Of a DNA stretch of 64,000 nucleotides, positions 7,060 through 59,334 are shown one piece after another (position 1 is the stretch's first letter; every line of letters begins with the position of its first letter). Source of the stretch: Variovorax sp. PBL-H6. Lineage in GTDB: Bacteria; Pseudomonadota; Gammaproteobacteria; Burkholderiales; Burkholderiaceae_C. Under the pieces are notes generated by a model. It saw only the letters and a list, made by a program, of their open reading frames with translations, did not search any database and was not told where the DNA came from. The stretch spans positions 620,001 through 684,000 of the forward strand of contig NZ_LR594659.1 of the NCBI RefSeq assembly GCF_901827155.1, in the 5' to 3' direction. The translations under genes and the position numbers were made by a program.

Positions 7060-7063
7060 CGCT

Positions 7064-7918: not shown

Positions 7919-8391
7919 ACGGCCTCCGCCAGTTGCTGATGGGAATGCTGCTTGACCTTGCCGAGCAGCTTGTGCAGTTGCGCGATCTCCTTGGCATTGA
8001 GCGCTGCGAAAGCGTCGACGATCCATGCCTCGTGCTGCTGTGCCATGTCGTTGAAGAGCCGCCGCCCGCGCGGCGTGAGGCGCACGCGCCAGGCGCGGCG
8101 GTCGCCTTCCACATCGACGCGCTCGACGAGCCCTTCGGCCACCAGCTGGTCGGTGACGCCGGTGACGTTGCCGCCCGTCACCATCATTCGGCGCGACAAC
8201 TCGTTCATCTTGAGCCCGTCGGGTGCGCGTTCCAGCTGCGACATGAGGTCGAAGCGGGGCAGGGTGGTGCCGAACCGTTCGCGCAGCTCGTTGCGCACCT
8301 GCTTTTCGATCAGCTGCGTGCAGGTCAGGAGTCGCAGCCAGAGCCGCAGCTCCTCCGGATGCTCGCTGTGGGCGCGTGCTTCGAGGTCCAT
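7915..8391 (-). CDS. MarR-family transcriptional regulator
   Basis: 158 residues with the MarR winged helix: recognition region [19 protein letters not shown] and wing [18 protein letters not shown]. It is the second gene of the operon, directly after the monooxygenase/reductase gene and overlapping the hydratase gene. MarR regulators of aromatic pathways commonly sense the acyl-CoA intermediate. The palindrome at 10767-10780 before the first gene is its probable operator, giving autoregulated repression relieved by an anthranilyl-CoA-type ligand. Ligand identity is inference. Confidence 0.9.
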
Positions 8392-8393
8392 GC

Positions 8394-10757: not shown

Positions 10758-10766
10758 GGATCAATA

Positions 10767-10780
10767 GTTTAGACCTAAAC
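10767..10780. promoter_or_regulatory. Palindromic operator GTTTAGACCTAAAC before the anthranilate operon
   Basis: GTTTAG-AC-CTAAAC is a perfect 6-bp inverted repeat with a 2-bp spacer, 9 bp upstream of the first gene of the operon (minus strand) and 77 bp upstream of the divergent methyltransferase gene. Size and symmetry fit a MarR dimer. Position over the translation-initiation region suggests repression. Confidence 0.65.
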
Positions 10781-10852
10781 AATGTGATGTCAACTCCATG
10801 AAGGGCTTTCCCTGAAGGTCGGTTGACGACTTTGCGAGTGCTGGCAAGAATC

Positions 10853-10900
10853 GCTCCATGCCAAGTCTGATGCCAAGCTCCATACCAAGCCTGATGCCGA
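10853..10900 (+). repeat. 24-bp tandem duplication across the cfa start
   Basis: Units 10853-10876 and 10877-10900 match at 21 of 24 positions. The first carries ATG where the second has ATA, and both contain an internal ATG. The copy adds eight residues to the predicted N-terminus. Confidence 0.85.
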
Positions 10901-12144: not shown

Positions 12145-12156
12145 AGCGAGTCACCC

Positions 12157-12480
12157 ATGCTGTATCGATTCAACTCCCGCGCCAGCCCTCCCTTCGTAAT
12201 GCTCGAGACACATGCACGGCAGCTGTTCGACATCATCGGCAAGGCGCCGGCGCCCAAGGGTGTCATCACGGGCGAGCAGATGCCCGCCGCCATTTCCGCG
12301 CTCGAGTCCGCCATTGCGCGCGAAAGCCGCAACACCCACAACCACGACGACTATGCCGTCGAGGGCCACGACAACGAAGCCGAGAAGCAGCATATCGGGC
12401 TGCACCAGCGCGCCGTGCCGTTGCTGCACATGCTGAAAGAATCCCTGGCTGACGGCAAGGACGTGACCTGGGAGGTTTAG
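12157..12480 (+). CDS. DUF1840 family protein
   Basis: 107 residues beginning MLYRFNSRASPPFVMLE, with the family-typical GVITGEQMPAAISALE followed by a His/Asp/Glu-rich middle and a C-terminal RAVPLLHMLK helix. DUF1840 proteins are small cytoplasmic proteins common in beta-proteobacteria, of unknown function. It lies 12 bp after the cfa gene and is probably co-transcribed with it. No signal peptide or membrane segment is seen. Confidence 0.85.
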   Translation: MLYRFNSRASPPFVMLETHARQLFDIIGKAPAPKGVITGEQMPAAISALESAIARESRNTHNHDDYAVEGHDNEAEKQHIGLHQRAVPLLHMLKESLADGKDVTWEV

Positions 12481-12484
12481 TTCG

Positions 12485-12554
12485 CCCCCAGGGGCCCGGC
12501 GAAGCCGGTTCCGCGGTGTCTCCCGAACGGGCGGCGCTTCGCGCGGCCTGGGGG
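12485..12554. repeat. Partial copy of intergenic GC-rich repeat, forming a large hairpin
   Basis: Bases 12485-12519 match the end of the 85-bp repeat found at 27.3 and 38.8 kb (shared CCCGGC-AAGCCGGTTCCGCGGTGT with one changed base). CCCCCAGG (12485-12492) pairs with CCTGGGGG (12547-12554), and CCGGC/GCCGG forms an inner stem. It sits between two convergent genes and may end transcription from both sides, although no T-run follows. Confidence 0.6.
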
Positions 12555-12565
12555 AAGTCCCCCGC

Positions 12566-13573
12566 TCAGTCCACTTTTGCGCCTGAGGCCTTCACCACCT
12601 TCGCCCACTTGATGTGTTCGCTTTCGATCAGCTTGGCGAACTCGGCCGGCGTATTCCCGCTCGGGATCGCGCCCTGGGCCGTCATCTTCTCCTTGATGGC
12701 CGGAGTGCCCAGCGACTTGGCGACCTCCTGCTGGATGCGGTTCACGATCTCCGGCGAGGTGCCGGCCGGCGCCAGCAGGCCGAACCACGAGCTCGCCTCG
12801 TAGCCCTTGAGCGCCGGGCCGCCGGCCTCCTCGACGGTCGGCACATCGGGCAGGGCCGGTGAACGCTGCGCGCTCGTCACGGCCAACGCCTTGAGCTTGC
12901 CGCCCTTGATCTGCTGCATCGACGAGGGCAGGTTATCGAACATCACGTCGGAATTGCCGCCCACCAGGTCCAGCAGCGCGGGGCTCGAGCCACGGTACGG
13001 GATGTGCGTCATGAAGCTGCCGGTCATCGTCTTGAAGAGCTCGCCGGCCAGGTGGATCGAGGTGCCGCTGCCGCTGGAAGCCATGTTGAGCTTGCCCGGG
13101 TTGGCCTTCGCGTATTTGATGAAGTCTGTCACGCTGTTGATGTTGAGCGCCTTCGCCTTGTCGACATTCATCTCCATGACGTTCGGCACCGCCGCCACAA
13201 GCGTGATCGGCACGAAGTCCTTGATCGGGTCGTAAGGCAGCTTGGGGTAGAGCGCGCGGTTGATGCCATGCGTGCCGACGGTGCCCATCAGCAGCGTATA
13301 GCCGTCGTTCGGCGCCCTGGCGACGATTTCAGCCCCGACGTTGCCGCCGGCGCCCGCGCGGTTGTCGACGATGAACTGCTGCCCGAATGCCTTGGACAAT
13401 TCGGGCGCGATCGCGCGCGCCAGGATGTCGGTGGTGCCGCCTGGCGCAAAGGGCACGACGATGCGCACCGGCTTGGTGGGCCAGGTGCCTTGCGCGGTGG
13501 CGGGACCCGCGGCGAGTACCGCGGCGGCGGCGAGGGCCAGTGCGGCGCGGCGGGGAATGAATGCTGAGCTCAT
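12566..13573 (-). CDS. Bug/TctC-family periplasmic substrate-binding protein
   Basis: 335 residues, starting [12 protein letters not shown] with a signal peptide cleaved after about residue 27 (ATAQ). Bug proteins are Venus-flytrap solute receptors, usually for carboxylic acids; [17 protein letters not shown] and [12 protein letters not shown] form the ligand-binding carboxylate pincers. The start was chosen for the AGGA box about 10 bp upstream; an ATG 21 bp earlier is possible. No TctA/TctB permease genes are nearby, so partner and ligand are unknown. It is next to a LysR gene on the same strand. Confidence 0.9.
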
Positions 13574-13649
13574 GCGGAATTCCTGTTGATGCATCGCGTC
13601 GTGTTGTACAGGGCTCGCGTCACATCCGGCGCAGGGAATTACCCCGTGT

Positions 13650-14624
13650 TCACCGGAGTACCTTTGCCCTCGGCTGCGCGCTCGCCCATGCAGGCGTGAC
13701 GGACCCCCCATGTACGCTCTGCGCAAAGCCACGCGCGCGGAACTGCTCCACCACGAAGTCGACGAACACGCGGGTCTTCGCCGGCAGCAGCTTCCGGCTC
13801 GGGTAGTACAGCGACAACGGCCCCGCATCGTCATACCAGCCCGGCAGCAGCCGCAGCAGCGCGCCGCTCTGCAGCCCGGGCAGAGCAAACGGCATCGGCA
13901 CCAGCGCGACGCCCAGACCCAGCATCGCCGCGCGGCACATCGCTTCGGGGTCGCTGAAGATCAGGCGGGCCCGGACTGCCACCGCCACTTCGTCACCGGC
14001 GGTGTTGCGCAGCGTCCAGGGGCGGATGCGCCCGGTGGGCGAGGAGCGGCGCACGATGCTGTCGAAGGCGGCCAGCTCTGCCGGGTGCGACGGCATCGCC
14101 TTGCCGGCCAGGTAGTCCGGCGCGGCGACGGCAACTACATGGATGCGCGCCAGCTCGCGCGCGACCAGCCCCGGCGTGAGCTCGATGCCGCCGCCGATCG
14201 CCGCGTCGAAGCCCTCGCCGATCAAGTCCACCTGCCGGTTCTCGAAATGCCAGTCGGGCAGCACGGCCGGATAAAGCGCCAGGAAATCGCCGAGCAGTGG
14301 CACGACGTACTCGCGTCCGAAGGCCTGCCCCATGCTGACCTTGAGGGTGCCCGCCGGCTGCCGATCGGCGTCGGCGGCGCCGGCCACGGCGTCGGCCAGC
14401 GTCCCGAGCGCACCGGCGACCTGGTGCAGCAGTCGCTCGCCGCCCTCGGTCAGGGTCAGCTTGCGCGTGCTGCGCTGAAACAGGCGCAGGCCCAGGCGGG
14501 CTTCCAGTCGCGCGACGTTCTTGCTCACCGCTGCGGGCGTCAGCCCCAGTTGCCGCGCGGCAGCGGAGAAACTGCCAGTTTCGGCGCTGCGGACAAAGGA
14601 CTCGAGGTGACTCAGGGGTTGCAC
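13650..14624 (-). CDS. LysR-family transcriptional regulator
   Basis: 324 residues. The N-terminal winged helix-turn-helix (about 4-62) reads [20 protein letters not shown] with [14 protein letters not shown] as recognition helix. The effector-binding domain follows from about residue 90. The start is GTG. It is transcribed away from the SDR gene at 14735, the usual arrangement for a LysR regulator and its target, with an inverted repeat in the shared region. The C-terminal extension (last ~25 residues) is low in family character. Ligand unknown. Confidence 0.92.
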
Positions 14625-14632
14625 GCGCCCAT

Positions 14633-14651
14633 TTTCAACCCAAAGTTGAAA
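14633..14651. promoter_or_regulatory. Inverted repeat TTTCAAC-N5-GTTGAAA, probable LysR site
   Basis: A perfect 7-bp inverted repeat with 5-bp spacer lies in the 110-bp region between the divergent LysR and SDR genes, only 8 bp before the LysR start. It contains the T-N11-A spacing of LysR boxes. It likely serves for autorepression and activation of the SDR gene. Confidence 0.6.
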
Positions 14652-14734
14652 TTGATAAGGCCGTTGGGGCGCTACCGGAGGCGCAATCGAATCCCGACAC
14701 TGCAGTCATCGCAACACACTTTCCAAAGTCCACC

Positions 14735-15496
14735 ATGTCCCAAGCCACTTCCCCCAAGCCCCTCTTCAGCGGCAAGGCCGCCTTCGTCACCGGCGGTTCG
14801 CGCGGCATCGGCGCCTCCATCGTGCGGCGTCTCGCGCAGGACGGGGCTGCCGTCGCCTTCAGCTATGCCAGCAACGATGCCGCCGCCCGTGATCTGTCCG
14901 CAAGCATCGAAGCCGCAGGCGGACGCGCGATGGCGCTGCGCGTCGACAGCGCCGATGCGGATGCGCTGCGCTCAGCCATCGACCAGGCTGCGCAAGCATT
15001 CGGCCGGCTCGACATCCTGGTCAACAATGCCGGCGTGCTCAAGCTCGGCACCGCCGATCAGATCTCGCTGGAAGATTTCGACCTCACGTTGAACGTCAAC
15101 GTGCGCGCCGTCTTCGTCGCCATTCAGGCGGCCCTGCGGCACATCGGCGAAGGTGGCCGCATCATCAACATCGGCAGCACCAACGCCGAGCGCATGCCCT
15201 TTCCGGGGGGCGGCGTCTATGCCATGAGCAAATCCGCGCTGACCGGCCTCGTGCAAGGCTTCGCGCGCGACCTCGGGCCGCGCGGCATCACGATCAACAA
15301 CGTGCAACCCGGCCCGGTCGACACCGACATGAACCCGGCCGATGGGCCGATGGCTTCGACCATGCACGGGTTCATGGCCATTCCGAGACACGGCCGCGGT
15401 GACGAGATCGCGGGCATGGTGGCTTACCTTGCAGGCCCCGAGGCCGCCTTCGTCACTGGCGCCAGCCTCAACATCGACGGAGGCTTCGCGGCCTGA
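14735..15496 (+). CDS. Short-chain dehydrogenase/reductase (SDR)
   Basis: 253 residues, classical SDR. NAD(P)-binding TGGSRGIG at 19-26, structural NNAG, catalytic Tyr162 and Lys166 in YAMSK, and the C-terminal TGASLNIDGGF are all present, so an active oxidoreductase is expected. The GGSRGIG motif and downstream residues fit NADP(H) use. Expression is probably set by the divergent LysR gene. Substrate cannot be read from sequence. Confidence 0.92.
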   Translation: MSQATSPKPLFSGKAAFVTGGSRGIGASIVRRLAQDGAAVAFSYASNDAAARDLSASIEAAGGRAMALRVDSADADALRSAIDQAAQAFGRLDILVNNAGVLKLGTADQISLEDFDLTLNVNVRAVFVAIQAALRHIGEGGRIINIGSTNAERMPFPGGGVYAMSKSALTGLVQGFARDLGPRGITINNVQPGPVDTDMNPADGPMASTMHGFMAIPRHGRGDEIAGMVAYLAGPEAAFVTGASLNIDGGFAA

Positions 15497-15532
15497 CCGA
15501 AGCAGGCCACTGCCGCTGGCCGGCCGGCTCGC

Positions 15533-16531
15533 TCATCGGCACATCGCCCGGGCCGCGTCGACGATGCGCTGGGCGCCCACGCGCGATTGCGCTTCCAGAA
15601 CCGGCGCATAGCCCACCGGGATGCGCGGCGCCCCCAGCCGCGCGATGCGGCAGCCGGTGGCCTCGGCGGCGCTGGCTGCGATCTCGGCGCCGAAACCGGC
15701 GGCCTGCACCGCCTCGTGCACCACCAGCAGTCGCCCGGTGCGCGCGCACGAGCCGAACACCATCTCGCGGTCCCACGGCCACACGGTACGCAAGTCGATC
15801 AGCTCGACCGCGATTCCCTCGGTGGCGAGCACATCGCAGGCGGCGCTGCAGGCTTGCAACTGGCGGCTCCAGCTGACCAGTGTCAACGCGTCGCCCGCGC
15901 GCAGGCGCGCAGCCTTGCCCAGCGGCACCTTGACCGATTCGTCCACGGCGCCGCGCGAACCCCACAGGTTCTTGTGCTCGATGTAGACCACCGGGTCCCC
16001 GCATTGGAGGGCCGCGCGCAGCAGCGAATGGTTGTCCTGCGGCGTCGACGGGCACACCACGACCACGCCCGGCAGGTGCGCGAACCAGGCTTCCAGCGAT
16101 TGCGAATGCTGCGCGGCCGACGCATCCCAGATGCCGCCCGGCATGCGCGCCACCAGCGGCACCCGGCCCTGGCCGCCGAACATGAAGCGGTTCTTGGCGG
16201 CCTGGTTCACCAGCTCGTCCATGCCGCAGAGCGCGAAATCCACCACACGCATCTCGACGACCGGCCTGAGCCCCGCGAGCGCCATGCCCACGCCGGCACC
16301 CATGATCGCGGCTTCGGAGATCGGCGTGTCGATCACCCGCTCGGCGCCGAAGCGCTGCTGCAGGCCCTTGTACTGGCCGAAGATGCCACCCCGGCCCACG
16401 TCCTCGCCGAGCACCACCACGCGGGCATCGGCCTCCATCTCGCGTTGCACGGCCAGCGCCGCAGCCTCGGCGTAGCTCAGCTCCCGGACTGTGGCCGCAC
16501 GCCCGCCGCCCGGCGCCGTGTCGCTGCTCAT
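15533..16531 (-). CDS. 2-oxoacid dehydrogenase E1 component, beta subunit
   Basis: 332 residues, transketolase-like pyrimidine-binding fold. VVVLGEDVGRGGIFGQYKGL, DTPISEAAIMGAGVGMAL and PGGIWDASAAQHSQSLEAWF are the conserved E1-beta segments; the last contains the His that contacts thiamine diphosphate. With the alpha subunit it forms an alpha2beta2 decarboxylase. The ATG overlaps the alpha stop (ATGA, 16528-16531); a second in-frame ATG lies 6 bp earlier. No E2 or E3 gene is present in the window, so the pair must borrow lipoyl carriers or use another acceptor. Confidence 0.9.
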   Translation of the reverse strand: MSSDTAPGGGRAATVRELSYAEAAALAVQREMEADARVVVLGEDVGRGGIFGQYKGLQQRFGAERVIDTPISEAAIMGAGVGMALAGLRPVVEMRVVDFALCGMDELVNQAAKNRFMFGGQGRVPLVARMPGGIWDASAAQHSQSLEAWFAHLPGVVVVCPSTPQDNHSLLRAALQCGDPVVYIEHKNLWGSRGAVDESVKVPLGKAARLRAGDALTLVSWSRQLQACSAACDVLATEGIAVELIDLRTVWPWDREMVFGSCARTGRLLVVHEAVQAAGFGAEIAASAAEATGCRIARLGAPRIPVGYAPVLEAQSRVGAQRIVDAARAMCR

Positions 16532-48139: not shown

Positions 48140-48799
48140 GTGCGCACGCTGCTGGTGGAAGACGACGAGATGATCGGGAGCAGCCTGCGGCATGCGCTCG
48201 AGGGCGCCGGCTGGTCGGTCGACTGGGTGCGTGACGGCGCGCTGGCGCAGAGCGCCTTCGCCGATGGCGGCTATACCTGCGTGCTGCTCGACCTCGGCTT
48301 GCCCCGGCAGGATGGCACCGAGGTGCTGCGCAGGGCGCGGGAGCGGGGCGATACCACGCCCGTGCTGGTGCTCACCGCGCGTGATGGCCTGGAGGACCGC
48401 ATCCACGGCCTCGACCTCGGCGCCGACGACTACCTGCTCAAGCCCTTCGAGTTCCGCGAGCTGCTGGCGCGCATGCGCGCCGTGATCCGCCGCCGCGACG
48501 GCGCGGCGCATTCGGTGATCGGCGGCGACGGCCTGCAGCTGGACCTGACCACGCGCGAGGTGTTGCGCAACGGCGATCGCGAGGCCCTGACGGCGCGCGA
48601 GTTCGCGCTGCTGCACGCGCTCCTGGAGCGGCCGGGCGCCATCCTGTCGCGCGAGCAGCTCGAGAACCGCATCTACGGCTGGGGCGAGGAGGTCACCAGC
48701 AACGCGGTGGACGTGCTGATCCACGGCATGCGGCGCAAGCTCGGGCCCGACGCAATCCGCAACGTGCGAGGGCTCGGATGGCGAGTGGCGGGGGCATGA
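48140..48799 (+). CDS. OmpR-family response regulator (QseB/TctD/PmrA-like)
   Basis: 219 residues. Receiver with EDDE, Asp51 in VLLDLGLPRQDG, switch LTAR and Lys in YLLKPFE, then an OmpR winged helix (LTAREFALLHALLERPGAIL, NAVDVLIHGMRRKL). GTG start behind AAGGAGG. The stop overlaps the kinase ATG (ATGA, 48796-48799). The QseB-like class often handles envelope or organic-acid signals. Target genes unknown; the secreted-subunit operon nearby is a possible one. Confidence 0.92.
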   Translation: MRTLLVEDDEMIGSSLRHALEGAGWSVDWVRDGALAQSAFADGGYTCVLLDLGLPRQDGTEVLRRARERGDTTPVLVLTARDGLEDRIHGLDLGADDYLLKPFEFRELLARMRAVIRRRDGAAHSVIGGDGLQLDLTTREVLRNGDREALTAREFALLHALLERPGAILSREQLENRIYGWGEEVTSNAVDVLIHGMRRKLGPDAIRNVRGLGWRVAGA

Positions 48800-50175
48800 A
48801 GAAATACATGCACTACCCGCGGCCTTGGTACATGCCCTGCTCGCTGCGCGGCAAGCTGCTGCTGTGGCTGGTTTCCCTGCACCTGATCGCCGCCGGCGTT
48901 GCGGCCTGGGCCTCTTACATGAGCTACGGGCGCATGGTCCACACCTTCATGGACGACCAGATGCAGCTGCTGGCCAACTCCTACGCCGCGAACGACAACA
49001 CGCCGGTGCTGCAGCCGCAGGCGGACGAGAGCGTCTTCAAGTGGGGCGCCTTCGTGGTCCAGATCTGGAGCCCCGACGGCCGGCTGCTCGCCAGCTCCTG
49101 GCCCCGGCTCGCCGTGCCCCTGCAGGCCGGGCCCGGGCTGCGCAACGTGCGCACCGGCGCCGACCGCGACGACGACTGGCGCGTCTACACCGCCGAGGCC
49201 GGCGCCCGGCCCCTTCAGCTCCGCGTGCAGATCGCGCAGAGCGGCAGCTTCCTGCGCCACGAGGTGGCACACCGCGCCCTGTTCGCGGCATTGCCGATCG
49301 CGCTGCTGCTGCCGGTTTCCCTGGCGGTGCTCTGGATGGTGGTGTGGCTCAGCTCCTACTCGCTGCACGCCGTGGCGCGCGAGGTGGCCGCACAGGACGA
49401 GCGCAGCCTCTCGCAGCTCTCGCTGGCGCGCGTGCCCGACGAGATCGCGCCGTTGGTGAGCGCCTTCAACAGCCTGCTGGCACGCCTGCGCGACGCTTTC
49501 GCGGCCCAGCGCCGCTTCGGGCAGGACGCGGCGCACGAGTTGCGCACCCCGGTCGCTGCCATCGGCCTGCAGCTCGAAAACTTGCGCGCCCATGTGCCGG
49601 CGGGCGACGCGGCAGAGCGCTTCGCCCAGCTCGAGGCCGGCGTCACCCGTGCGCAGCACCTGATCGAGCAACTGCTGCGGTTGTCGCGCCAGGAAAGTGC
49701 CGCACCGGCGTCGACCGCCGAGCCGGTCGATGTCGCCGCGCTGCTGCGCGAAAGCCTGGGCCAGCTGATGGTGGTGGCGGATCGGCGCCGCATCGATGTC
49801 GGCTTCGACGGCACGGTGGCGCCCGTGGTCAGCGCGCCCGCGGCCGAGCTGCGCAGCGTGTTCGACAACCTGATCGACAACGCTTTGCGTCACGCGCCCG
49901 AGGGCAGCGTGGTCGACGTGCGCCTGCACGCGGTGCAGGGCCGGCCGGTGGTGGACGTGGTGGACAACGGGCCCGGCATCCCGCCGGAGTTCATGACGCG
50001 GGTGTTCGACCGCTTCTTCCGCGTGCCCGGCACCTCGGCCGGCGGAAGCGGGCTGGGCCTTGCCATCGCTCGCACGGCGGCGCTGCGGCACGGGCTGCGC
50101 ATCGCGCTCAGCAACCGCAGCGAGCAGGAGGAAGGCGGCACCGGACTGATCGCGAGGGTCTATCTGCCGGCCTGA
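48796..50175 (+). CDS. Sensor histidine kinase (QseC-like)
   Basis: 459 residues. Two membrane helices (about 20-42 and 160-182) bracket a periplasmic sensor of about 115 residues. The H box has His247 in QDAAHELRTPVAAI, N box FDNLIDNALRHAPEG, G1 VVDNGPGIP and G2 GGSGLGLAIARTAA. The start MKKYMHYPRPW was chosen because it overlaps the regulator stop. It phosphorylates the response regulator just upstream. Signal unknown. Confidence 0.92.
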   Translation: MKKYMHYPRPWYMPCSLRGKLLLWLVSLHLIAAGVAAWASYMSYGRMVHTFMDDQMQLLANSYAANDNTPVLQPQADESVFKWGAFVVQIWSPDGRLLASSWPRLAVPLQAGPGLRNVRTGADRDDDWRVYTAEAGARPLQLRVQIAQSGSFLRHEVAHRALFAALPIALLLPVSLAVLWMVVWLSSYSLHAVAREVAAQDERSLSQLSLARVPDEIAPLVSAFNSLLARLRDAFAAQRRFGQDAAHELRTPVAAIGLQLENLRAHVPAGDAAERFAQLEAGVTRAQHLIEQLLRLSRQESAAPASTAEPVDVAALLRESLGQLMVVADRRRIDVGFDGTVAPVVSAPAAELRSVFDNLIDNALRHAPEGSVVDVRLHAVQGRPVVDVVDNGPGIPPEFMTRVFDRFFRVPGTSAGGSGLGLAIARTAALRHGLRIALSNRSEQEEGGTGLIARVYLPA

Positions 50176-50914: not shown

Positions 50915-51202
50915 CTAAAGCCCGTGCACCACGCAGAGGGCCGACGGCGCTGCAGGCAGGTTCAACGTGCTCTCGCCAGCGTGGGTGAAGCGAAATTCGC
51001 GGCCATTGAGCACCACGGAGCGCTGGTTGGTCCAGACGCGGTACTCGAAACCGCCTGCCATGGGCGTCGCCTGCAGGACCCGGAACACCGGCGGCACGAT
51101 GACCGTGAAAGTCAGCCGGGCCCTTGCGCTGTTGGCGCCCACCTGCGTTTCCGCCGCGCAAGCCAGCGGCAGCAGGAGCAGGGCAATCAGGGCGCTTTTC
51201 AT
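50915..51202 (-). CDS. Small secreted protein of the subunit/usher-like locus
   Basis: 95 residues with signal peptide MKSALIALLLLPLACAAE. The mature start ARLTFTVIVPPVFRVLQATP resembles the N-terminal strand of the three larger secreted subunits (LNFSITIPKVLFLQVGTGT and similar). It ends with a Cys (ALCVVHGL). It is the last gene of the locus, 234 bp after the usher-like stop, on the same strand. Possibly a minor tip or terminator subunit; role inferred. Confidence 0.65.
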   Translation of the reverse strand: MKSALIALLLLPLACAAETQVGANSARARLTFTVIVPPVFRVLQATPMAGGFEYRVWTNQRSVVLNGREFRFTHAGESTLNLPAAPSALCVVHGL

Positions 51203-51436
51203 GCAAACCCCTTGGAGAAGACGCTGGCGGACACGGACGGCACGAGGCAGTGAAGACGGGAGACGTCGCAGCGACGCCCGGTCTCCGCATATCGGCAGCG
51301 CCGCGCCAAAGTTGAGGCGCCGCCGGTACGCTCGTGGATCTGTCCGGAGTAGATCCGACGGAAGTGTCCTGCGCAATCAGCCGAAAGTTCGCTCGGCCGG
51401 ATTGAAGCTCGCGCGGAACGCCGCGCCGTCAGCCGC

Positions 51437-53551
51437 TCAGCGCTCTTTCTGCACCGGGTAGTCTGCCGTCACGGTGTCGCGCACGCGCACCTCGATGCGC
51501 CGCGAGGGGGCAGCGCTGCTCCATGGCAGGGGCAGGTTGTCCTGGACGAGCTCGATCTCGTGCGGGCCGGCCACGACCTGAGGAAAGCTGTAGAAGCCCT
51601 GGGCATCGGTGCGCGCCACGTAGCGGCGGTCGAGCACCAGCGTCACGTTAGCCACGCCGCCCTCGCTGGCTTCGCGCCGACCGCTGTTGTCCTGGTCGAA
51701 GAACACATGACCTTCGAGCCGGCCTGCTCCGCTGCCGGGCATGCCGCCGATCGGCGCGCTCGCCAGGCCGCTTCGGTTCTCGTAACGTAGCGCGACCATG
51801 AAGCTGCGGCTCGAAGGCGTGGTCAGCACCGGTGCCTGCGTCGCAGCAGACAGCGCTGACACCACCGCCGGATTGAGCGATTCCTGCCCGTGCGCCGCGG
51901 TGTATTGGGCAATGAAGGACCAGCCCAGGCCGAGCGGCCAGCTCAGCCGCGCGTTGGCGCTCAGGAAGCGCGCGCTGTTGTCGCCAGTGCCGTTGCTGCC
52001 GCGCAGGCTCAGGTCCAGGCGCGCGCCGGCCGGCAGCGGCGTGGTGCCGAGCACGCCCCAATACACCGTGCGCCGTTCGACCCCCTGCTCGCGCGAGTGC
52101 TCCAGCGCCAGCGAGGTCGAGAGCCACTGCGTCTCGCCCACGGCCCAGGCATGGTCGACGCCGCTGCGCAGCACGCGCAGCTCGGTGCCGTGGGCGACAT
52201 CGGTGCGCCACTGCGTGTAGCCCCAGTCGGACCTGTGCTCCCAGGTGAGCTGCATGGACTGTGCGGCGAAGTTGCCGCTGCGCGCCGCCAGGGTGGCGGA
52301 GATCGCGTCGCGCGAGTCGAAGCGCCAGTGGCCGAAGAGGTTGCCGAAGATCGAGCTGCGCCGCAGGCCGCTGACGCTGTCGCTGGCTTCGACGTTGCCG
52401 CCGAGTTGCCACTGGCGCGTCGCGATGTCGCCGCGCCAGGACGCGCCGCGCAGGTTGTTCGGCAGCGAGTCGCCGCCCCAGCGCAGCGATGGCTCGAAAT
52501 AGAACACCGATGCCGCTTGCTGCATCAGCTCGCTGCGCCAGGCAGCGTCGACCCAGGCGCCCGTGGCCGAGTCACTCCGCGCCAGCGAACCGGCGTCCGA
52601 AGGCCGGCCCTGGCTGCGCGCCAGATTGGCCTGGATGCGCATGCCGCCCACCTTGTCGGCCAGGCCGCCGAAACCACTGCCCAGTGAGTCGGCCCAAGGT
52701 GCCAGGCCTTGCCAGGCCACGGCGGTCCAGAGCGAACGCGTGTTCTGCGCGTAGCCGGGCACCCCGTTACCGTTGACGTCACGCGTCTCGGTCATCTGTG
52801 CCGCCGCGTCCACCCGATTCGGCGCCAACGCGCCCTCGGCGCCGGCCAGTTGCGTTTGGGCTCCCAGGCTTACCGCGCTTCCGCGCCCGGCGGTGAAGCC
52901 CTGGAAGTTGAGACCGTCGAAGAAACCGAGCCGCCCCGCCGAGGCATTGAAGCTGGTGCGGCCCGGCTGCTCCAGCGTGGCGGCCACGCCCTCGATCGGC
53001 AGGTTCGGCAGATAGACCCGGCCGATGCCGCGCGACAGCGGCGTGCTCGCCATGTTGATGTTGCCCACGCTGTTGTTGGCGAACCAGCCGCCGTCGAAAG
53101 GCATGCCGCGCTGATCGATGCGCCACGTGCTGCCGGTGCGGTAGCTGTAGGGCACCACCGTGGTCGGCGTGCCGGTGCTGCCGACGAGGCCGAGGCCCGT
53201 GACGGGTGCGCTGTCGCGGTTCAGGTTGAGATTGGCCGAGATCGTGCCGTAGTCGGGCGTGTCGACATGGCCGGAGAACAGCAGCGACTGGCTGGCCTGG
53301 CGCACCGCGCCGCTCTGCCGGGTGGACTGCCCCTCCACGCTCCAGTCGCGCGGCCAGCCGGTGTCGCGGAGGCCCATCGCCTCTTCGCCCTGTGCCGCCT
53401 GAGGGCTGTCGTCGAGGACGCGGTCGACGTACTCGCCAGCGCCGGCGGATGCCGCAGCGGGCGGCGCGGATTGGGCCCACGCAGACGCTCCGGCCAGGGT
53501 GGCGCCCGCCCAGCACAGTTCGAGGGCGTGACGCGCGAGCGTTCGTCTCAC
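51437..53551 (-). CDS. Usher-like outer-membrane beta-barrel protein with SdrD/Cna-B-like C-terminal domain
   Basis: 704 residues from a GTG that overlaps the chaperone stop (GTGA, 53548-53551). Signal peptide ends near ASAWAQ (residue 27). About 60 linker residues follow, then a long stretch of alternating amphipathic strands and aromatic girdles typical of outer-membrane barrels. From about residue 615, GHVFFDQDNSGRREASEGG and ARTDAQGFYSFPQV form a calcium-binding SdrD/Cna-B-like module. The classical FimD N-terminal domain is not recognisable and the protein is shorter than usual ushers (800+). Its place right after a pilus-type chaperone supports an export-pore role; a plain surface barrel is the alternative. 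Confidence 0.65.
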   Translation of the reverse strand: MRRTLARHALELCWAGATLAGASAWAQSAPPAAASAGAGEYVDRVLDDSPQAAQGEEAMGLRDTGWPRDWSVEGQSTRQSGAVRQASQSLLFSGHVDTPDYGTISANLNLNRDSAPVTGLGLVGSTGTPTTVVPYSYRTGSTWRIDQRGMPFDGGWFANNSVGNINMASTPLSRGIGRVYLPNLPIEGVAATLEQPGRTSFNASAGRLGFFDGLNFQGFTAGRGSAVSLGAQTQLAGAEGALAPNRVDAAAQMTETRDVNGNGVPGYAQNTRSLWTAVAWQGLAPWADSLGSGFGGLADKVGGMRIQANLARSQGRPSDAGSLARSDSATGAWVDAAWRSELMQQAASVFYFEPSLRWGGDSLPNNLRGASWRGDIATRQWQLGGNVEASDSVSGLRRSSIFGNLFGHWRFDSRDAISATLAARSGNFAAQSMQLTWEHRSDWGYTQWRTDVAHGTELRVLRSGVDHAWAVGETQWLSTSLALEHSREQGVERRTVYWGVLGTTPLPAGARLDLSLRGSNGTGDNSARFLSANARLSWPLGLGWSFIAQYTAAHGQESLNPAVVSALSAATQAPVLTTPSSRSFMVALRYENRSGLASAPIGGMPGSGAGRLEGHVFFDQDNSGRREASEGGVANVTLVLDRRYVARTDAQGFYSFPQVVAGPHEIELVQDNLPLPWSSAAPSRRIEVRVRDTVTADYPVQKER

Positions 53552-54351
53552 GGCGCGAATCGCTGCTCGATGGCCATCGAGCCCTTGCGGCCCCATTCGA
53601 GCTTGCCGCTGACCACGAGGGGGTAGCGGATCGCGACGGCGGTCTCGGTGTCGCCGGCCTTGGTCGCGACCAGCGCGATCTCGCGTGTCTCGCCCGCCAT
53701 GACGGGCGTTGTGGCAGCCTGAATTTCCAGCGCGGTGCCGTCGGCGTCCTTGCCGCCGAGGAAGCCGGCCAGCCGGCCATGCGCGTTGCCGGTGTTTCGG
53801 ACCTTGAGCACGGGCGTGGGGCGGCCGTCGACAGTCTTGACGGTGGCGCCCGCCAGTTCCAGCACAGGCGCCACCTCGCCCACGGCGACATACACGATGA
53901 CGCCGATGCGCGCGCCCAGCGCGATCGGCATGCTCGGCGCGGCCGTCGGCTGCTGGCCTTCGATCATCACGGCGAACCGGCACTCCGTCGGCGGCGCGTC
54001 GGCCGGTGGCGCCACCTCGAAGCGGAAGCGGTAGGGCCGCCCGGGTGTGATGCTGAGCTCGCGCCGCTCGATCGCCACCCAGGGGCGGCAGCTGCCGGGC
54101 AGCAGCTCGTCGCTGAAGTCGACCGAGCCATCCGGACGCAGCGTCCAGTCTGCCGTCTTGAGCTTGTAGGCACCGGCGCGCTCGTCGCGGTGCGTCAGCT
54201 CGAGCACCTCGCTCACCCGCTGGCCGGGCTTGGCGGAGAGCTCGAAGCGCGGCGGCGAGACGGCCAGCGAGAACTGGGCGTGGGCTGGCAAGATGGCCGC
54301 CACCCCCATGGCGAGGGCAGCGGCGATGCGGAAAGCGGCAAGGCTCTTCAA
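53548..54351 (-). CDS. Pilus-assembly-type periplasmic chaperone
   Basis: 267 residues. Signal peptide MKSLAAFRIAAALAMGVAAI ends at AHAQ. The mature protein has two Ig-like domains: FSLAVSPPRFELSAKPGQRV to the G strand near ALGARIGVIVYVAVG, then LELAGATVKTVDGRPTPVL and a C-terminal LVVSGKLEW strand. Cys at CRPW and CRFAV may pair. The ATG overlaps the preceding stop (ATGA). Chaperones of this type complete the fold of pilus subunits and hand them to an usher, which is the next gene here. Confidence 0.78.
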   Translation of the reverse strand: MKSLAAFRIAAALAMGVAAILPAHAQFSLAVSPPRFELSAKPGQRVSEVLELTHRDERAGAYKLKTADWTLRPDGSVDFSDELLPGSCRPWVAIERRELSITPGRPYRFRFEVAPPADAPPTECRFAVMIEGQQPTAAPSMPIALGARIGVIVYVAVGEVAPVLELAGATVKTVDGRPTPVLKVRNTGNAHGRLAGFLGGKDADGTALEIQAATTPVMAGETREIALVATKAGDTETAVAIRYPLVVSGKLEWGRKGSMAIEQRFAP

Positions 54352-54818
54352 GGCGTGACCTCGATTTCGAAGTAGAACTGGAGCGATTGCGCCCGCTCCA
54401 CGGCACGCCCGTCGGCCATCAGGTCGAGCACGATGCTTTCATGGAGGAAGGGCTCGCGCACCGCGCCCTCGAACACCAGGGTGCGGCCACCCCCGCGCAC
54501 CGTGCCGGGCAAGAGCCGGCCCTGCGTGCGCCAGGTGGCGACCATCTGTTCGCCCTCGGTCGGTGCCAGGCCCATGTAGAGGCGCGCGGACCGGTTCAAC
54601 CAGGGCGAGAGGTTGAGCCGCAGCGCCACGGCGAGGCGGCCGTCCACCGTGTTGTCGCCTGCGCGGCCGGGCGCCAGCTGGCGCCAGCGCATCGGCGTCG
54701 TGGGCTGGCTGAGATAGGTGCCTGTGTCGTCGACGCGGTAGGTGGCTGCATGCGCTGCGGCCTGCAACGCCAGCGCGAACAGGGCGGCAATCGGCCAGTG
54801 AAGACAGCAGACCTTCAT
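54348..54818 (-). CDS. Secreted accessory/minor subunit of the usher-like locus
   Basis: 156 residues. Signal peptide MKVCCLHWPIAALFALALQA ends near AHA. The mature part is beta-rich (LAVALRLNLSPWLNRSARLY, RTLVFEGAVREPF) and ends QFYFEIEVTP, an alternating aromatic strand ending in Pro as in the three larger subunits. Both ends overlap neighbours by ATGA (54348-54351 and 54815-54818), so it is made in step with subunit and chaperone. No known domain. Confidence 0.7.
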   Translation of the reverse strand: MKVCCLHWPIAALFALALQAAAHAATYRVDDTGTYLSQPTTPMRWRQLAPGRAGDNTVDGRLAVALRLNLSPWLNRSARLYMGLAPTEGEQMVATWRTQGRLLPGTVRGGGRTLVFEGAVREPFLHESIVLDLMADGRAVERAQSLQFYFEIEVTP

Positions 54819-55486
54819 GGCGTGCTCAGCGTGAAGGTCGCACGTCCGGTGAAGGTGCCCGCGGGGACCAGCTGGGTATTGAGGTAGCGGAACGCGAGGC
54901 AGCTTTCGAACCAGGTGTTGCGGGTGACCGTGAGCAGGGTCTGCGCGCCCCCGGTGAACGCGCCGCTCGGAAGGGTCGGTGTTGAATCTCCGTTTCCCGA
55001 CGAGGTCCAGGCGACGTTGCTGAAGGCGAGGGTGGCGCCATCCGCGTTGATCAGCGCGGCAGGCGTGCTGACGCTGAGCATGGCGTCGCTGCCGCCGCTG
55101 CCGTTTCCCGGCCTCCGAAAGAAGCCGCCGACATACACCTGTCCGGTGCTGGCGGGCGAGGTGCAGAACGCGCGGCCATCCCACGCACTGGCCGTGAGCG
55201 TGCTGTCGGTCGTCATGGTCTGTCCGGCGCCGGAACCGATCTGTGCGCTGGGCACGGTGACCGAGGCGCTGTTGACCGTGGTGTTGCTGCCGGGCGTGCC
55301 GCCGCTGTTGAAGTTGCCGCCCGTCACCGTGCCCGCGCCGACCTGCAGGAAGAGCGCCCGGCTACCGGGGGTGATGTCGACCGTGAAGCCTAGGGCCGCC
55401 GGCGGGCCCGCACTGCAGAGTGCCGCAACCAGCGCCAGCAAGGGGCGTCGTCCGGCACGTTGGAAAAAGGCGGGCAAGGTTTTCAC
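54815..55486 (-). CDS. Secreted structural subunit (third paralogue) of the usher-like locus
   Basis: 223 residues. Signal peptide to about residue 33 (AALGF). The mature N-terminus FTVDITPGSRALFLQVGAGT carries the shared FLQVG-G motif and the C-terminus GRATFTLSTP the shared strand-plus-Pro end. The interior is Gly/Ser/Thr-rich with NFNSGG, typical of a beta-sandwich pilin. Two Cys (FCTSP, SCLAF) may form a disulphide, absent in the two longer-spaced paralogues. The stop overlaps the accessory gene start. Confidence 0.72.
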   Translation of the reverse strand: MKTLPAFFQRAGRRPLLALVAALCSAGPPAALGFTVDITPGSRALFLQVGAGTVTGGNFNSGGTPGSNTTVNSASVTVPSAQIGSGAGQTMTTDSTLTASAWDGRAFCTSPASTGQVYVGGFFRRPGNGSGGSDAMLSVSTPAALINADGATLAFSNVAWTSSGNGDSTPTLPSGAFTGGAQTLLTVTRNTWFESCLAFRYLNTQLVPAGTFTGRATFTLSTP

Positions 55487-55583
55487 GGTCGACGCTGCCT
55501 TGCGGCGGTGGGCTCAGGTTGCCGCCGGCTCCGGCGATGGTTGTGTCGAGGGCTGCCCGGGTGACTGCAGGGGCTGGCCTGGA

Positions 55584-56222
55584 TCAGGGCGCGGTGGCGG
55601 TGTAAGTCACGACGCCGTTGTTGCCCGCCGTGCTGCCATAGGTGCCCGCCGGCAGCGTCGCAGTGTTGGCGTACGCGAAGGTCCATTTGCCTTCCTGGCG
55701 CACCAGGCCACCCGTGGCCGCGAGCGTGGTCCCAGTCGTCGAACTGCCGCCGGCTGCAGCAGTGTTGAAGGCCGGGTGGGCGATGCCCGTGTTAATGAAT
55801 CCGGCGGTGGTAGACCCCAACGCGCCGGACGCCACCGTGATGTCGCTCCACGGCACCGTGGGATTGCCGGCAACGCCGGTGCTCAGCGGGCCAGTGACCC
55901 CGCTGTTGAGCGTCACCGTGCCGGTGTTGCCGAGCACGCGAACCGTGACGGCGCCAGCCGTCAGGTCACCGCCGGTGCCCGCCACTGCGCCGCCGCCGAC
56001 GTTTCCGGCCGCCACACTGAAATCGATGGCATCTACCGTTGCGTTGGTCGCGTAGATGGTGCCCGTACCCACTTGCAGGAATAGCACCTTCGGAATGGTG
56101 ATGCTGAAGTTCAGCCTTGCGCTCGCTGACAGGGCGCCAGCGCCGGTCACGAAATTCGATTCGGCATGGGCCGCCAGCGGTGCGATAGCGGCAAAGGCAG
56201 CGATCACGAGGAGTTTTTTCAT
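55584..56222 (-). CDS. Secreted structural subunit B (pilin-like)
   Basis: 212 residues. Signal peptide MKKLLVIAAFAAIAPLAAHA. Mature SARLNFSITIPKVLFLQVGT and C-terminal VVTYTATAP bracket a Gly/Thr/Ala-rich beta domain (NPTVPWSDITVASGAL, GIAHPAFNTAA). It is about half identical by eye to the next upstream subunit, including NPTVPWSDI and IAHPAF. Its 5' leader shares a CCTACATT...CCACCTT block with that paralogue. No cysteine. Candidate repeating subunit of a surface fibre. Confidence 0.75.
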   Translation of the reverse strand: MKKLLVIAAFAAIAPLAAHAESNFVTGAGALSASARLNFSITIPKVLFLQVGTGTIYATNATVDAIDFSVAAGNVGGGAVAGTGGDLTAGAVTVRVLGNTGTVTLNSGVTGPLSTGVAGNPTVPWSDITVASGALGSTTAGFINTGIAHPAFNTAAAGGSSTTGTTLAATGGLVRQEGKWTFAYANTATLPAGTYGSTAGNNGVVTYTATAP

Positions 56223-56385
56223 AGGGATCCGAAGAAAGTGGGTTGTTAAGGTGGCCGCAATGTAGGTGAGTACCTGCAAAAAATGTGAACACTAAAGTTC
56301 TCAGAAAATTACCATTGAATACTTCCGTTAAAAAGTTGCGCTAAATGTTTTCACCGGCGAGGGGCGGGATTTCGGCATCCCTGAC

Positions 56386-57030
56386 TCAGGGCACCGTCGC
56401 GCTGTAAACAACGAGGCCGTTCTTGGCGGCGGAGCCACCGTAGGTGCCTGCTGGCACTGCTTGCGAATTGGCGTACCTGTAAAACCAGAGGCCTTCCCGG
56501 CGCACCCTGCCGCCAGTGGCGGCCACCGTGACGGGGGTGCCTGGGCCGCCGACGGGGCCGGTGCTGAACGCGGGGTGGGCGATGGCTCCGTTGATGAAGC
56601 CGAAGGTCGCATTCGGCAAGGCGCTGGTCGTCACGAGGATGTCGCTCCAAGGCACCGTGGGATTGCTCGCGACGCCGCTGCTCAGTGCGCCGGTGGTCGT
56701 GCTGTTGAGCAAGATGTCGCCGCTGTTGCCGAGCAGGCGGACGGTGACAATGCTTGACAAGAAGAGGTCGCCTCCGGTGCCAGCCAGCACCGTGCCGTTG
56801 CCGACGCTGCTGGCCGGCACGACGAAATTGATGTTGTCCACCGTCGGGTTGGCGGTGTAGCTGGTGCCCGTGCCAATTTGAAGGAACAACACCTTGGGAA
56901 TGGTGATCCCGAAGCGCAGACTTGCGGTCGCCGAGAGACTGCCGGCGCCGGTGGTCGAATTCGATTCAGCACGCGCTATGAGCGGCGCGATGGCAGCTAG
57001 AGCGGCCAGCAGAAGAATTTTCTTGTTCAT
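56386..57030 (-). CDS. Secreted structural subunit A (pilin-like)
   Basis: 214 residues, the promoter-proximal gene of the locus. Signal peptide MNKKILLLAALAAIAPLIAR followed by AES. Mature SLRFGITIPKVLFLQIGTGT and C-terminal LVVYSATVP match subunit B, as do NPTVPWSDILVTTSAL and IAHPAFSTG. It has no cysteine. The start with MNKK was preferred to an ATG eight codons earlier. Being first and duplicated, it is a candidate major subunit; function is inferred. Confidence 0.75.
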   Translation of the reverse strand: MNKKILLLAALAAIAPLIARAESNSTTGAGSLSATASLRFGITIPKVLFLQIGTGTSYTANPTVDNINFVVPASSVGNGTVLAGTGGDLFLSSIVTVRLLGNSGDILLNSTTTGALSSGVASNPTVPWSDILVTTSALPNATFGFINGAIAHPAFSTGPVGGPGTPVTVAATGGRVRREGLWFYRYANSQAVPAGTYGGSAAKNGLVVYSATVP

Positions 57031-57288
57031 GTTGCCCTGGTCGAAGGTGGGCAAATGTAGGCGAGAAATTTCTTGTTTTTTTAGAACTTAAGAATTCAAA
57101 AATATTACGGAGAATGCTTATGTATTCGGCCTCTGCTAGGGGTTTGCTCTAAGTCCGGCGCCTGCACTCTTGGGCGTCTGCGAAACGATCTGCCAGTCTG
57201 CTGCCGCTTAGATTTGCATCTGCGCGGTCTTGTAAAGTTCTCGGTTCGCCCCGAGTTCACCCACGTTTCCATTTCTCTCGAGCCAGTC
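57031..57288. promoter_or_regulatory. AT-rich divergent region between the subunit operon and htpG
   Basis: 258 bp. Bases 57055-57125 are strongly AT-rich (long T and A runs) and precede the subunit A gene on the minus strand. The minus-strand leader CGCCTACATTTGCCCACCTT (57040-57062 area) recurs with few changes before subunit B. On the htpG side, TTGCAT and GTAAAG hexamers near 57212-57237 are possible promoter parts. No clear heat-shock sigma consensus was found. Confidence 0.45.
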
Positions 57289-59334
57289 ATGACGCTTTCC
57301 AAGACCAAACTTCCTTTCCAGGCCGAAGTCGCCCAGCTGCTCCACCTGGTGACGCACTCGCTCTACTCGAACAAGGAAATCTTCCTGCGCGAGCTGATCT
57401 CGAACGCCTCCGATGCCTGCGACAAGTTGCGCTTCGAAGCCATCGACCAGCCGGCGCTCTACGAGGACCAGCCCACGCTGGAGGTGCGCGTGTCCTTCGA
57501 CAAGGACGCCAAGACCCTCACGATCGCCGACAACGGCATCGGGCTGTCGCAGCAGGAGGCCATCGACAACCTGGGCACCATCGCCAAGAGCGGCACCAAG
57601 GAGTTCATGAGCAAACTGTCGGGCGACCAGAAAGCCGACGCGCAGCTCATCGGCCAGTTCGGGGTGGGCTTCTATTCCGGCTTCATCGTGGCCGACAAGA
57701 TCACGGTGGAGTCGCGCCGCGCCGGCCTGCCGGCCGAAGAGGGCGTGCGCTGGGTCAGCACCGGCGCCGGCGACTTCGAGGTCGACACCATCACCCGCCC
57801 GCAGCGGGGCACCAGCGTGACCCTGCACCTGCGCGACGACGCCGAGGAGTACCTGAATCTCTGGAAGCTCAAGTCCATCATCTCCAAGTACTCGGACCAC
57901 ATCTCATTGCCCATCCTGATGGAGAAGGAAGAGTGGAAGGAGGGCGAGGACAACAAGGGCGGCCAGATGGTCAAGACCGGCGAATGGGAGCCGGTGAACC
58001 AAGCCAACGCGCTGTGGAGCCGCCCCAAGAAGGACATCACGGACGAGCAGTACGTCGAGTTCTACAAGAACGTCAGCCACGACTACGAGCCGCCGCTGGC
58101 CTGGAGCCACAACCGCGTCGAGGGCAACACCGAGTACACGCAGCTGCTCTACATCCCCTCCAAGGCGCCGATGGACCTCTGGAACCGCGAGAAGAGCGCG
58201 GGCGTCAAGCTCTATGTCAAGCGCGTCTTCATCATGGACGATGCCGAGGCGCTGCTGCCGAGCTACCTGCGCTTCGTCAAGGGCGTGATCGACTCGGCCG
58301 ACCTGCCGCTCAATGTGAGCCGCGAGCTGCTGCAGGAAAGCCGGGACGTGAAGGCGATTCGCGAGGGCAGCACCAAGCGCGTGCTCGGCATGCTCGAAGA
58401 CCTGGCGAAGAAGCAACGCAAGACCACGACGAGCAGCGGCGATGAGGGAAAACTCGACATCGGCTCCGGCGAGTCGGTGCCCGCGCCCAACCCGGCCGAC
58501 GGCGTGACCGACGTGGTCGACAAGAACGCCGACACCACCCTGGCCGCCGAGGCCGCGGCCGAGTACGGCGATGAATCGGGCAAGTACGCCAAGTTCTACG
58601 CCGAGTTCGGCGCCGTGCTCAAGGAAGGCCTGGGCGAGGACTTCGCCAACCGCGAGCGCATCGCCAAGCTGCTGCGCTTCGCCTCCACCAGCAGCGACAC
58701 AATGAGCGTGAGCTTTGCCGACTACAAGTCGCGCATGAAGGAAGGCCAGGAGGCGATCTACTACATCACGGCCGAGACGCTGGCCGCCGCCCGGAACAGC
58801 CCGCAGCTCGAGATCTTCAAGAAGAAGGGCATCGAGGTGTTGCTGATGACCGACCGCGTAGACGAATGGGCGCTCAACTACCTCACCGACTTCGACGGCA
58901 CGCCGCTGCAGAGCGTGGCCAAGGGGGCGGTCGACCTGGGCAAGCTGCAGGACGAGACCGAGAAGAAGGCAGCCGAGGAAGCGGCCGAGGCCTTCAAGCC
59001 GCTGCTGGAGCGGCTCAAGGAAACGCTGAAGGACAAGGCCGAGGATGTGCGCGTGACCACCCGCCTGGTCGATTCGCCCGCCTGCCTGGTGGTGCAGGAC
59101 GGCGGCATGAGCACGCAGCTGGCGCGCATGCTCAAGCAGGCCGGCCAGCCGGCGCCGGAGCTCAAGCCAGTGCTTGAAGTGAATGCCGAGCACCCGCTGG
59201 TGAAGAAGCTCGAGGGCTCGCCGCATTTCGAGGACCTCGCGAACATCCTGTTCGATCAGGCCCTGCTCGCCGAAGGCGGCCTGCCCGCCGACCCGGCCGC
59301 CTACGTGCGGCGAGTGAACGCGCTGCTGGTCTAA
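57289..59334 (+). CDS. htpG: Molecular chaperone HtpG (Hsp90)
   Basis: 681 residues, GHKL ATPase and Hsp90 middle/C-terminal domains. [32 protein letters not shown] and [15 protein letters not shown] are the ATP-lid motifs; [20 protein letters not shown] and [15 protein letters not shown] lie in the middle domain. A segment near 385-440 ([20 protein letters not shown]) is an insertion that makes it longer than E. coli HtpG. The start MTLSKTK was chosen over an upstream in-frame ATG. Followed after 56 bp by the P450 gene. Confidence 0.97.

Follow-up and report, generated by a model that had tools for sequence, protein, structure and literature searches.

The chaperone-usher pathway falls into three divisions, classical, alternative and archaic (available text of PMC10104325). 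Its ushers are described in the available text of PMC8410936 as having five domains: barrel, plug, N-terminal domain (NTD) and two C-terminal domains (CTD1 and CTD2). Recruitment falls to the NTD and gating to the plug, while the C-terminal domains take part in assembly and secretion (PMC8410936). Here we examine a cluster of seven genes at positions 50,915 to 57,030 of a stretch of 64,000 nucleotides from the soil bacterium Variovorax sp. PBL-H6 (NCBI RefSeq assembly GCF_901827155.1, contig NZ_LR594659.1, positions 620,001 to 684,000 of the forward strand). This whole stretch is referred to as the window, and positions are those within it. We consider it likely that the operon encodes a fibre system of chaperone-usher type whose usher is reduced. 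In our best reading the system is strongly divergent and occurs in Variovorax and in scattered other Proteobacteria, and its origin probably lies in the archaic branch or in a sister lineage of that branch. A preliminary description of the cluster had already proposed a divergent chaperone-usher branch. This proposal was borne out by the chaperone (by profile, by fold and through a bridging genome), by the fold of the barrel protein and by its CTD1, whereas the barrel part gave no such support by sequence.

The seven minus-strand open reading frames (ORFs) of the preliminary description were all present, at their place and in their sizes. The genes and their parts are listed below (aa, amino acid residues).

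56386..57030, minus strand: s1, 214 aa, pilin-like subunit with a signal-peptide-like N-terminus
55584..56222, minus strand: s2, 212 aa, pilin-like subunit, paralogue of s1 and s3, without Cys
56091..56120, minus strand: s2 residues 35-44, ARLNFSITIP, candidate donor strand (putative function)
54815..55486, minus strand: s3, 223 aa, GTG start, third subunit, with Cys 108 and 196 past the signal-like stretch
54815..54818, minus strand: s3/p156 overlap, ATGA
54348..54818, minus strand: p156, 156 aa, signal-peptide-like N-terminus
54348..54351, minus strand: p156/chaperone overlap, TTGA
53548..54351, minus strand: predicted PapD-like periplasmic chaperone, 267 aa, TTG start, conserved basic residues R35 and R148
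53548..53551, minus strand: chaperone/barrel overlap, GTGA
51437..53551, minus strand: predicted usher-like outer-membrane barrel, 704 aa, GTG start
53414..53431, minus strand: barrel residues 41-46, N-terminal tail motif YVDRVL, at the position where ushers carry the N-terminal domain (putative role)
51770..53350, minus strand: barrel residues 68-594, predicted transmembrane beta-barrel of 24 to 26 strands
51440..51736, minus strand: barrel residues 606-704, C-terminal domain that aligns both with usher CTD1 and with SdrD-type domains, with an invariant PLPW
50915..51202, minus strand: p95, 95 aa, signal-peptide-like N-terminus followed by a strand resembling that of s1/s2, with a conserved C-terminal HGL

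The hydrophobic, signal-peptide-like N-termini reported earlier were directly visible on inspection of the translations. The overlaps had been given as ATGA, ATGA and GTGA; the first (s3/p156) and the last (chaperone/barrel) stood, but the one between p156 and the chaperone gene is TTGA. None of the seven proteins scored above a curated cut-off in Pfam and NCBIfam scans, and the only sub-threshold Pfam matches among them were SdrD_B and CarboxypepD_reg, at the C-terminus of the barrel.

For the 267-residue protein, 33 sequences made up a family profile, which was set against chaperones encoded at PapD_N loci of the order. Pfam score, not a tree, decided which of the comparison chaperones and ushers were treated as classical and which as archaic-type; proteins of 600 aa or fewer were left out of the archaic-type usher profile, and those of 360 aa or more out of the archaic-type chaperone profile. 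The family matched the archaic-type chaperones at 98.1% (expect value (E) 8e-14, 217 columns) and the classical chaperones at 1.0%, and the two comparison groups matched each other at 99.5%. A hidden Markov model of the family detected, at E 1e-8 among 992 ORFs, the chaperone encoded by an archaic operon of the same genome (L049, see below). The AlphaFold2 model (predicted local distance difference test (pLDDT) 86.3) had CsuC as its best Foldseek match (E 5.9e-7, template modelling score (TM) 0.46-0.52), and CfaA, FimC and PapD were among the 50 Foldseek matches listed. Model, structure matches and profile agree on a PapD-like fold of two immunoglobulin (Ig) domains. Two basic residues are conserved, R35 in 33/33 members and R148 in 30/33, and both lie opposite an Arg of the archaic-type template. 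In such chaperones, two conserved basic residues, one in strand A1 and one ahead of the end of strand G1, anchor the C-terminus of the subunit. Pfam gave no family for the window chaperone up to E 10, so that it falls outside PapD_N as curated; PapD_N was also absent from the Pfam families matched by 27 aligned members, and a PDB sequence search with the chaperone gave no match. Among the 120 best of 2557 matches in the protein search, a few relatives were named molecular chaperone, COG1470 family protein or 'P pilus assembly protein, chaperone PapD'.

Two results of the structure searches tell against a chaperone: unrelated Ig proteins, such as CEP192 and WxLIP, came close behind CsuC in Foldseek, and WxLIP ranked first by Z in the VIA superpositions, at 7.5-7.9 Å over 227-228 residues. 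The protein might, on this evidence, be an Ig-like partner of the WxLIP kind instead of a folding chaperone, and the operon might build a WxLIP/WxL-like surface layer. We regard this as very unlikely, since CsuC was first in Foldseek, PapD-type chaperones superposed more closely (3.8-6.0 Å over 173-199 residues, VIA), the profile matched the archaic-type chaperones, R35 and R148 are conserved opposite the Arg of such a chaperone, and the neighbouring genes encode an outer-membrane barrel and pilin-like subunits. From its profile and its predicted structure, the 267-residue protein is a putative PapD-like chaperone; the pilus-type chaperone of the preliminary description was thus upheld by the archaic-type profile match and the CsuC fold match, and also by a bridging genome (L101, see below). 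A Cys pair was also observed in the N-terminal domain of the chaperone family, C88 in 33/33 and C124 in 32/33 members (with one gap), and a C88/C124 disulfide is possible.

The model of the 704-residue protein, built with 34 sequences, had a pLDDT of 76.4 and a predicted TM of 0.69. Its strand list gave 24 to 26 strands in residues 68-594 followed by the C-terminal domain, and residues 1-64 were nearly all of low confidence. FimD and PapC made up the 14 best PDB matches in Foldseek (E 4.8e-13 to 9.9e-8). In VIA, FimD chains aligned on the barrel over 353-386 residues at 3.8-4.2 Å, and the alignment extended past the barrel into what we take to be CTD1. Porins of similar Z, among the 50 listed, aligned over 226-301 residues at 6.8-9.4 Å; PapC aligned over 368 residues at 6.2 Å, and the receptor PirA over 341 at 5.9 Å. 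In profile comparison (with L101 left out of the family profile), the whole barrel family scored 97.4% with the archaic-type ushers (E 1.3e-11, 202 columns). Its scores with TonB receptors (62.4%), LptD (14.9%) and classical ushers (3.0%) were lower. The archaic-usher signal of the whole family comes from the C-terminal domain, because the barrel part alone scores low.

Three results for the barrel itself weigh against an usher. The fold scores were modest (the next protein had an E of 1.3e-7, and TM was 0.27 to 0.45); the barrel part alone matched archaic-type ushers at 18.6% and TonB receptors at 54.2%; and its second half matched them at 36.7% and 84.4%, respectively. We read these middling scores as those of generic barrel patterns, yet they do not favour an usher. 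They would suit a non-export outer-membrane protein, TonB-receptor-like or porin-like, that carries a Cna-B/SdrD domain, in which case the secreted proteins would assemble in the periplasm or on the surface without an usher mechanism. Pfam, however, gave no TonB receptor or porin family for the window barrel up to E 10, and no TonB receptor family was among the Pfam matches of 29 aligned members up to E 1; the sole barrel family among these members was OMP_b-brl, in two of them (best E 0.59). The window barrel thus belongs to no non-export porin family by Pfam. Likewise, Pfam Usher was not matched by the window barrel up to E 10 and was absent from the 16 families matched by the 29 members up to E 1. 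The 14 best fold matches were all ushers, the barrel gene overlaps that of the PapD-like chaperone, and the C-terminal domain also speaks for an usher, as set out next; a non-export barrel therefore appears unlikely to us.

The soluble domains were examined with four profiles made from archaic-type ushers, with the classical ushers as a positive control (NTD 91.6%, plug 98.2%, CTD1 98.6% and CTD2 97.5%). On the barrel family, the profile of CTD1 scored 95.6%, but those of NTD (0.2%), plug (2.8%) and CTD2 (0.2%) gave no match. The earlier statement that no FimD-type N-terminal domain is recognisable was therefore correct, and the plug and CTD2 were likewise undetected. Their absence agrees with the lengths, because only about 40 residues separate the first strand of the model from the signal-like stretch, none of the gaps between the predicted strands of residues 68-594 exceeds about 25 residues (a plug would need some 80), and nothing follows the CTD1-like domain. 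The shortness of the barrel protein, noted earlier, is due to the absence of the three soluble usher domains; as these three are defining domains, we do not file it in the usher family as defined.

The C-terminal domain had been described as an SdrD/Cna-B-like module. The SdrD character was clear, and it speaks for a non-export barrel carrying such a domain. SdrD_B was matched by the window barrel with an E of 5.6e-5, below the curated cut-off (23.7 bits against 29.7), and up to E 1 by 28/29 aligned members (best 4.7e-10). The barrel profile matched SdrD B domains of the PDB (E 4.4e-12), and the SdrD chain 10ps superposed at 2.0 Å over 98 residues (VIA). The description was incomplete, as the module aligns with usher CTD1 too. 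Compared with a profile of 28 SdrD-type domains, from which the barrels of the window and one relative (L246 and L232) were left out, the C-terminal domain scored 98.5%, and it scored 97.0% with usher CTD1. The SdrD-type domains as a group did not resemble usher CTD1 (15.0% as a profile), and only 4/28 of them exceeded 50% as single sequences (best 89.7%), whereas all 28 barrel family members did so (60.8-96.5%). The aligned cores are GVANVTLVLDRRYVARTDAQGFYSFP...LPLPW in the barrel and GFPNVRVYLDNQEVGRTNARGNLFVA...LPMS in the archaic-type usher CTD1, and PLPW is invariant in the 28 aligned barrel members.

A PDB sequence search with the window barrel gave only weak matches, to UafA and cyclases, and the barrel profile matched only SdrD/UafA-type domains and a cellulosomal scaffoldin in the PDB. 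In the protein searches, where scoring was limited to the 7995 candidates with the most words in common with the query, the relatives among the candidates scored were named hypothetical or SdrD B-like domain-containing in public sources and came from Variovorax and its relatives. The barrel is intact, is conserved down to about 21% identity with the window protein, and keeps Y41 and D43 of the N-terminal tail in all 28 aligned members. In two genomes of one genus (L086:6474-9104 and L087:7768-10239), an extension of LysM-like appearance was observed before the YxDR tail; a Pfam LysM match was given by 1/29 aligned members (E 0.017).

The bridge to full-length ushers is a locus in another class of the same phylum (L101; G505:C27:8000-20195), with minus-strand genes at 5794-8421, 9022-9924 and 10000-10635 that encode an 875-aa divergent usher, a related chaperone and a 211-aa protein without a family match. 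The L101 chaperone matched the window's chaperone family at 98.5% (E 3.9e-15) and the archaic-type chaperones at 98.1%. The 875-aa protein, which Pfam does not call Usher, matched the archaic-type ushers at 98.1% over 621 columns, spanning the plug and the C-terminal domains. By these profiles, a putative chaperone of the window's lineage stands near an usher that is not reduced like the window barrel. Against a true reduction, the archaic usher-domain profiles were weak on the single L101 sequence (NTD 1.0%, plug 12.2%, CTD1 75.4%, CTD2 28.6%), so divergence alone could hide an usher domain. L101 is in itself a second uncatalogued chaperone-usher-like cluster.

The s1/s2 family matched the s3 family at 99.5% (E 1.6e-22), which confirms that the three subunits are paralogous. 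The match of s1, s2 and s3 to SCPU pilins was weak (92% in global and 64 and 82% in local comparison) and is suggestive only, and a subunit profile gave matches of chance level in the PDB (best E 0.69). Positions 37, 39, 41 and 43 of the s1/s2-type subunits are non-polar, or Tyr in one case, in 26/26 aligned sequences. Such an alternating pattern is that expected of a donor strand, and we regard this strand as a candidate; an N-terminal donor strand of 13 residues is described for CupE pili in the available text of PMC10104325. The p95 gene is a real gene, because it was found in 15/27 related loci (85-103 aa) with a C-terminal HGL that is invariant in 13 aligned sequences. The N-terminal stretch of p95 resembles s1/s2 (93.6% over 32 columns). 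Other assignments failed: p156 had no profile match to usher NTD, plug, CTD2, pilin or chaperone, nor had p95 except for its N-terminal strand, and DUF4402 as the pilin family gave a single sub-threshold match in 80 genomes.

The distribution was surveyed at 27 loci, obtained by scanning genome contigs with the chaperone alignment, so that the chaperone is present in 27/27 by selection. The hosts are Variovorax, Polaromonas, metagenome-assembled genomes (MAGs) of other Burkholderiales/Comamonadaceae, a Gammaproteobacteria-labelled MAG, a Thiobacillaceae MAG (two contigs), Erythrobacter and Porphyrobacter. Genes for s2, s3 and p156 were each found at 26 loci, the barrel at 25 and p95 at 15, with the recurrent order s2-(s2)-s3-p156-chaperone-barrel-(p95); subunit, chaperone and usher-like genes are thus clustered and conserved. 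The order s2-s3-p156-chaperone-barrel is kept in Variovorax, other Burkholderiales, Erythrobacter and Porphyrobacter. Hence the gene order is conserved beyond the strain and the genus, and, in the last two genera, beyond the class of the window's genome. The p156 gene adjoins the chaperone gene at 26/27 loci. Where both genes of a junction were found, they overlapped in frame by ATGA, GTGA or TTGA at 23/26 (s3/p156), 25/26 (p156/chaperone) and 22/25 (chaperone/barrel) junctions; as the same junctions overlap in frame across related loci, the overlaps are not due to chance. L039 lacks the upstream genes because its contig starts within the chaperone gene.

In whole genomes, the chaperone was found in 14/41 relatives (13/25 within the genus), in 7/250 genomes of the order and in 9/398 genomes of the phylum (3 strong and 6 weak), the window's own genome being counted each time. 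Six divergent genomes among the 41 relatives, five of them of the same genus, had barrel, s2-like, s3-like, p156 and chaperone genes, in a different order in some. From the locus and whole-genome counts, the system is real, sporadic and older than the strain. L098-L100, from another class, were not counted as the system: they encode chaperone-like two-Ig proteins, with no barrel or subunits nearby by profiles.

Two loci had no barrel gene. One contig (L042) ends within the chaperone gene. The other locus, L036 of Polaromonas sp. JS666 (9744-15662), has subunits, p156 and the chaperone but no barrel in the 5.9 kb past the chaperone, which counts against the chaperone-usher reading; a 566-aa ORF on its opposite strand resembles a two-partner-secretion transporter. 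The genome of the window has one Pfam usher, on C2, in an archaic operon with Pfam SCPU, PapD_N and Usher (L049; G000:C2:260000-274000, 4521-8130); another archaic-type operon is L103 (Pfam Usher, sub-threshold PapD_N). Together with the three undetectable usher domains, these findings would agree with a barrel that is a remnant or accessory, its subunits being exported by a full usher elsewhere, such as the one on C2. We give this explanation hardly any credence, as the barrel is intact and conserved to low identity, with Y41, D43 and PLPW in 28/28 members, and as an in-frame overlap joins its start to the chaperone gene at most junctions.

Under the preferred reading, a chaperone-usher type system with a reduced usher, s1, s2, s3 and perhaps p95 would reach the periplasm via Sec. 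The PapD-like chaperone would complete the unfinished Ig folds of the subunits, hold them and hand them to the outer-membrane barrel, which would polymerise them by N-terminal strand exchange (A-x-L-x-F-x-I-x-I-P). The resulting fibre would leave through the barrel pore. Since the barrel keeps only CTD1 of the soluble usher domains, recruitment and holding may be carried out by CTD1, by the short conserved N-terminal tail (YxDR) or by a separate protein, and gating, if any, by barrel loops or by the growing fibre. p156 could be a tip or adaptor, and p95 an initiator, terminator or anchor. More tentatively, and with the balance close to even, we propose that a two-domain usher (barrel and CTD1) recruits, polymerises and exports without NTD, plug and CTD2, that the YxDR tail and the separate p156 or p95 take over recruitment or anchoring, and that the system is a further class beside the classical, alternative and archaic ones. 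L101 and the SdrD controls slightly reduced our confidence in both readings.

If this is true, a natural usher of barrel and CTD1 would show which usher parts are dispensable, would be a small model for subunit handover, and would add a class to a pathway divided into three (PMC10104325, available text). Barrels of Variovorax and its relatives that are labelled hypothetical or 'SdrD B-like domain-containing' would moreover gain a function, together with a link to their neighbours, a few of which already bear the name molecular chaperone or 'chaperone PapD'.

As to the surroundings of the operon, the flanking ORFs lie on the plus strand, and we take them, from their translations, to be histidine-kinase-like (48778-50175) and htpG-like (57214-59334). 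The stretches upstream of s1 (57031-57180) and s2 (56223-56385) are alike, with a CCTACA-TTGC-like element in both, as if gene and leader had been duplicated jointly. A promoter scan gave no sigma-70-type site.

Among the titles and abstract starts listed in searches of the open-licence PMC literature, none dealt with this operon or with an usher that lacks NTD, plug and CTD2, and a word search of the usher-diversity paper PMC5717340 returned no passage on loss of the plug or the N-terminal domain. By this literature search, the chaperone-usher kind is already known, and the operon and an usher without these domains would be new. WxLIP of Enterococcus differs from the window's chaperone in being a Gram-positive surface protein with a worse superposition than the PapD type and another genomic setting. 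The SdrD/Cna-B domains of Gram-positive adhesins are like the C-terminal domain of the barrel in Pfam, structure and profile; the window domain differs in being the last domain of an outer-membrane barrel, with an LPLPW tail that aligns with usher CTD1. With alternative (alpha) pili the system shares CfaA and EcpB among the closest chaperone folds, but CS1 pilin and alpha-usher families were absent from its matches in general Pfam scans, which involved no direct alpha-usher profile comparison. Classical pili (Fim, Pap) resemble the system in the predicted folds of barrel and chaperone, but neither the chaperone nor the barrel of the window resembles theirs by sequence profile, and ushers are described with five domains (PMC8410936, available text). 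Three things set the window system apart from archaic (sigma) pili: Pfam matches neither SCPU, PapD_N nor Usher in it, an NTD, a plug and a CTD2 are not recognisable, and p156 and p95 are additional. The candidate donor strand of its subunits has a counterpart in the N-terminal donor strand described for the archaic CupE pili (PMC10104325, available text). With the archaic pili (Csu, CupE and L049) the system further shares the chaperone fold and profile and CTD1. The Csu operon has the order subunit, chaperone, usher, and the same order is seen at L049 and, with the usher-like barrel, in the window.

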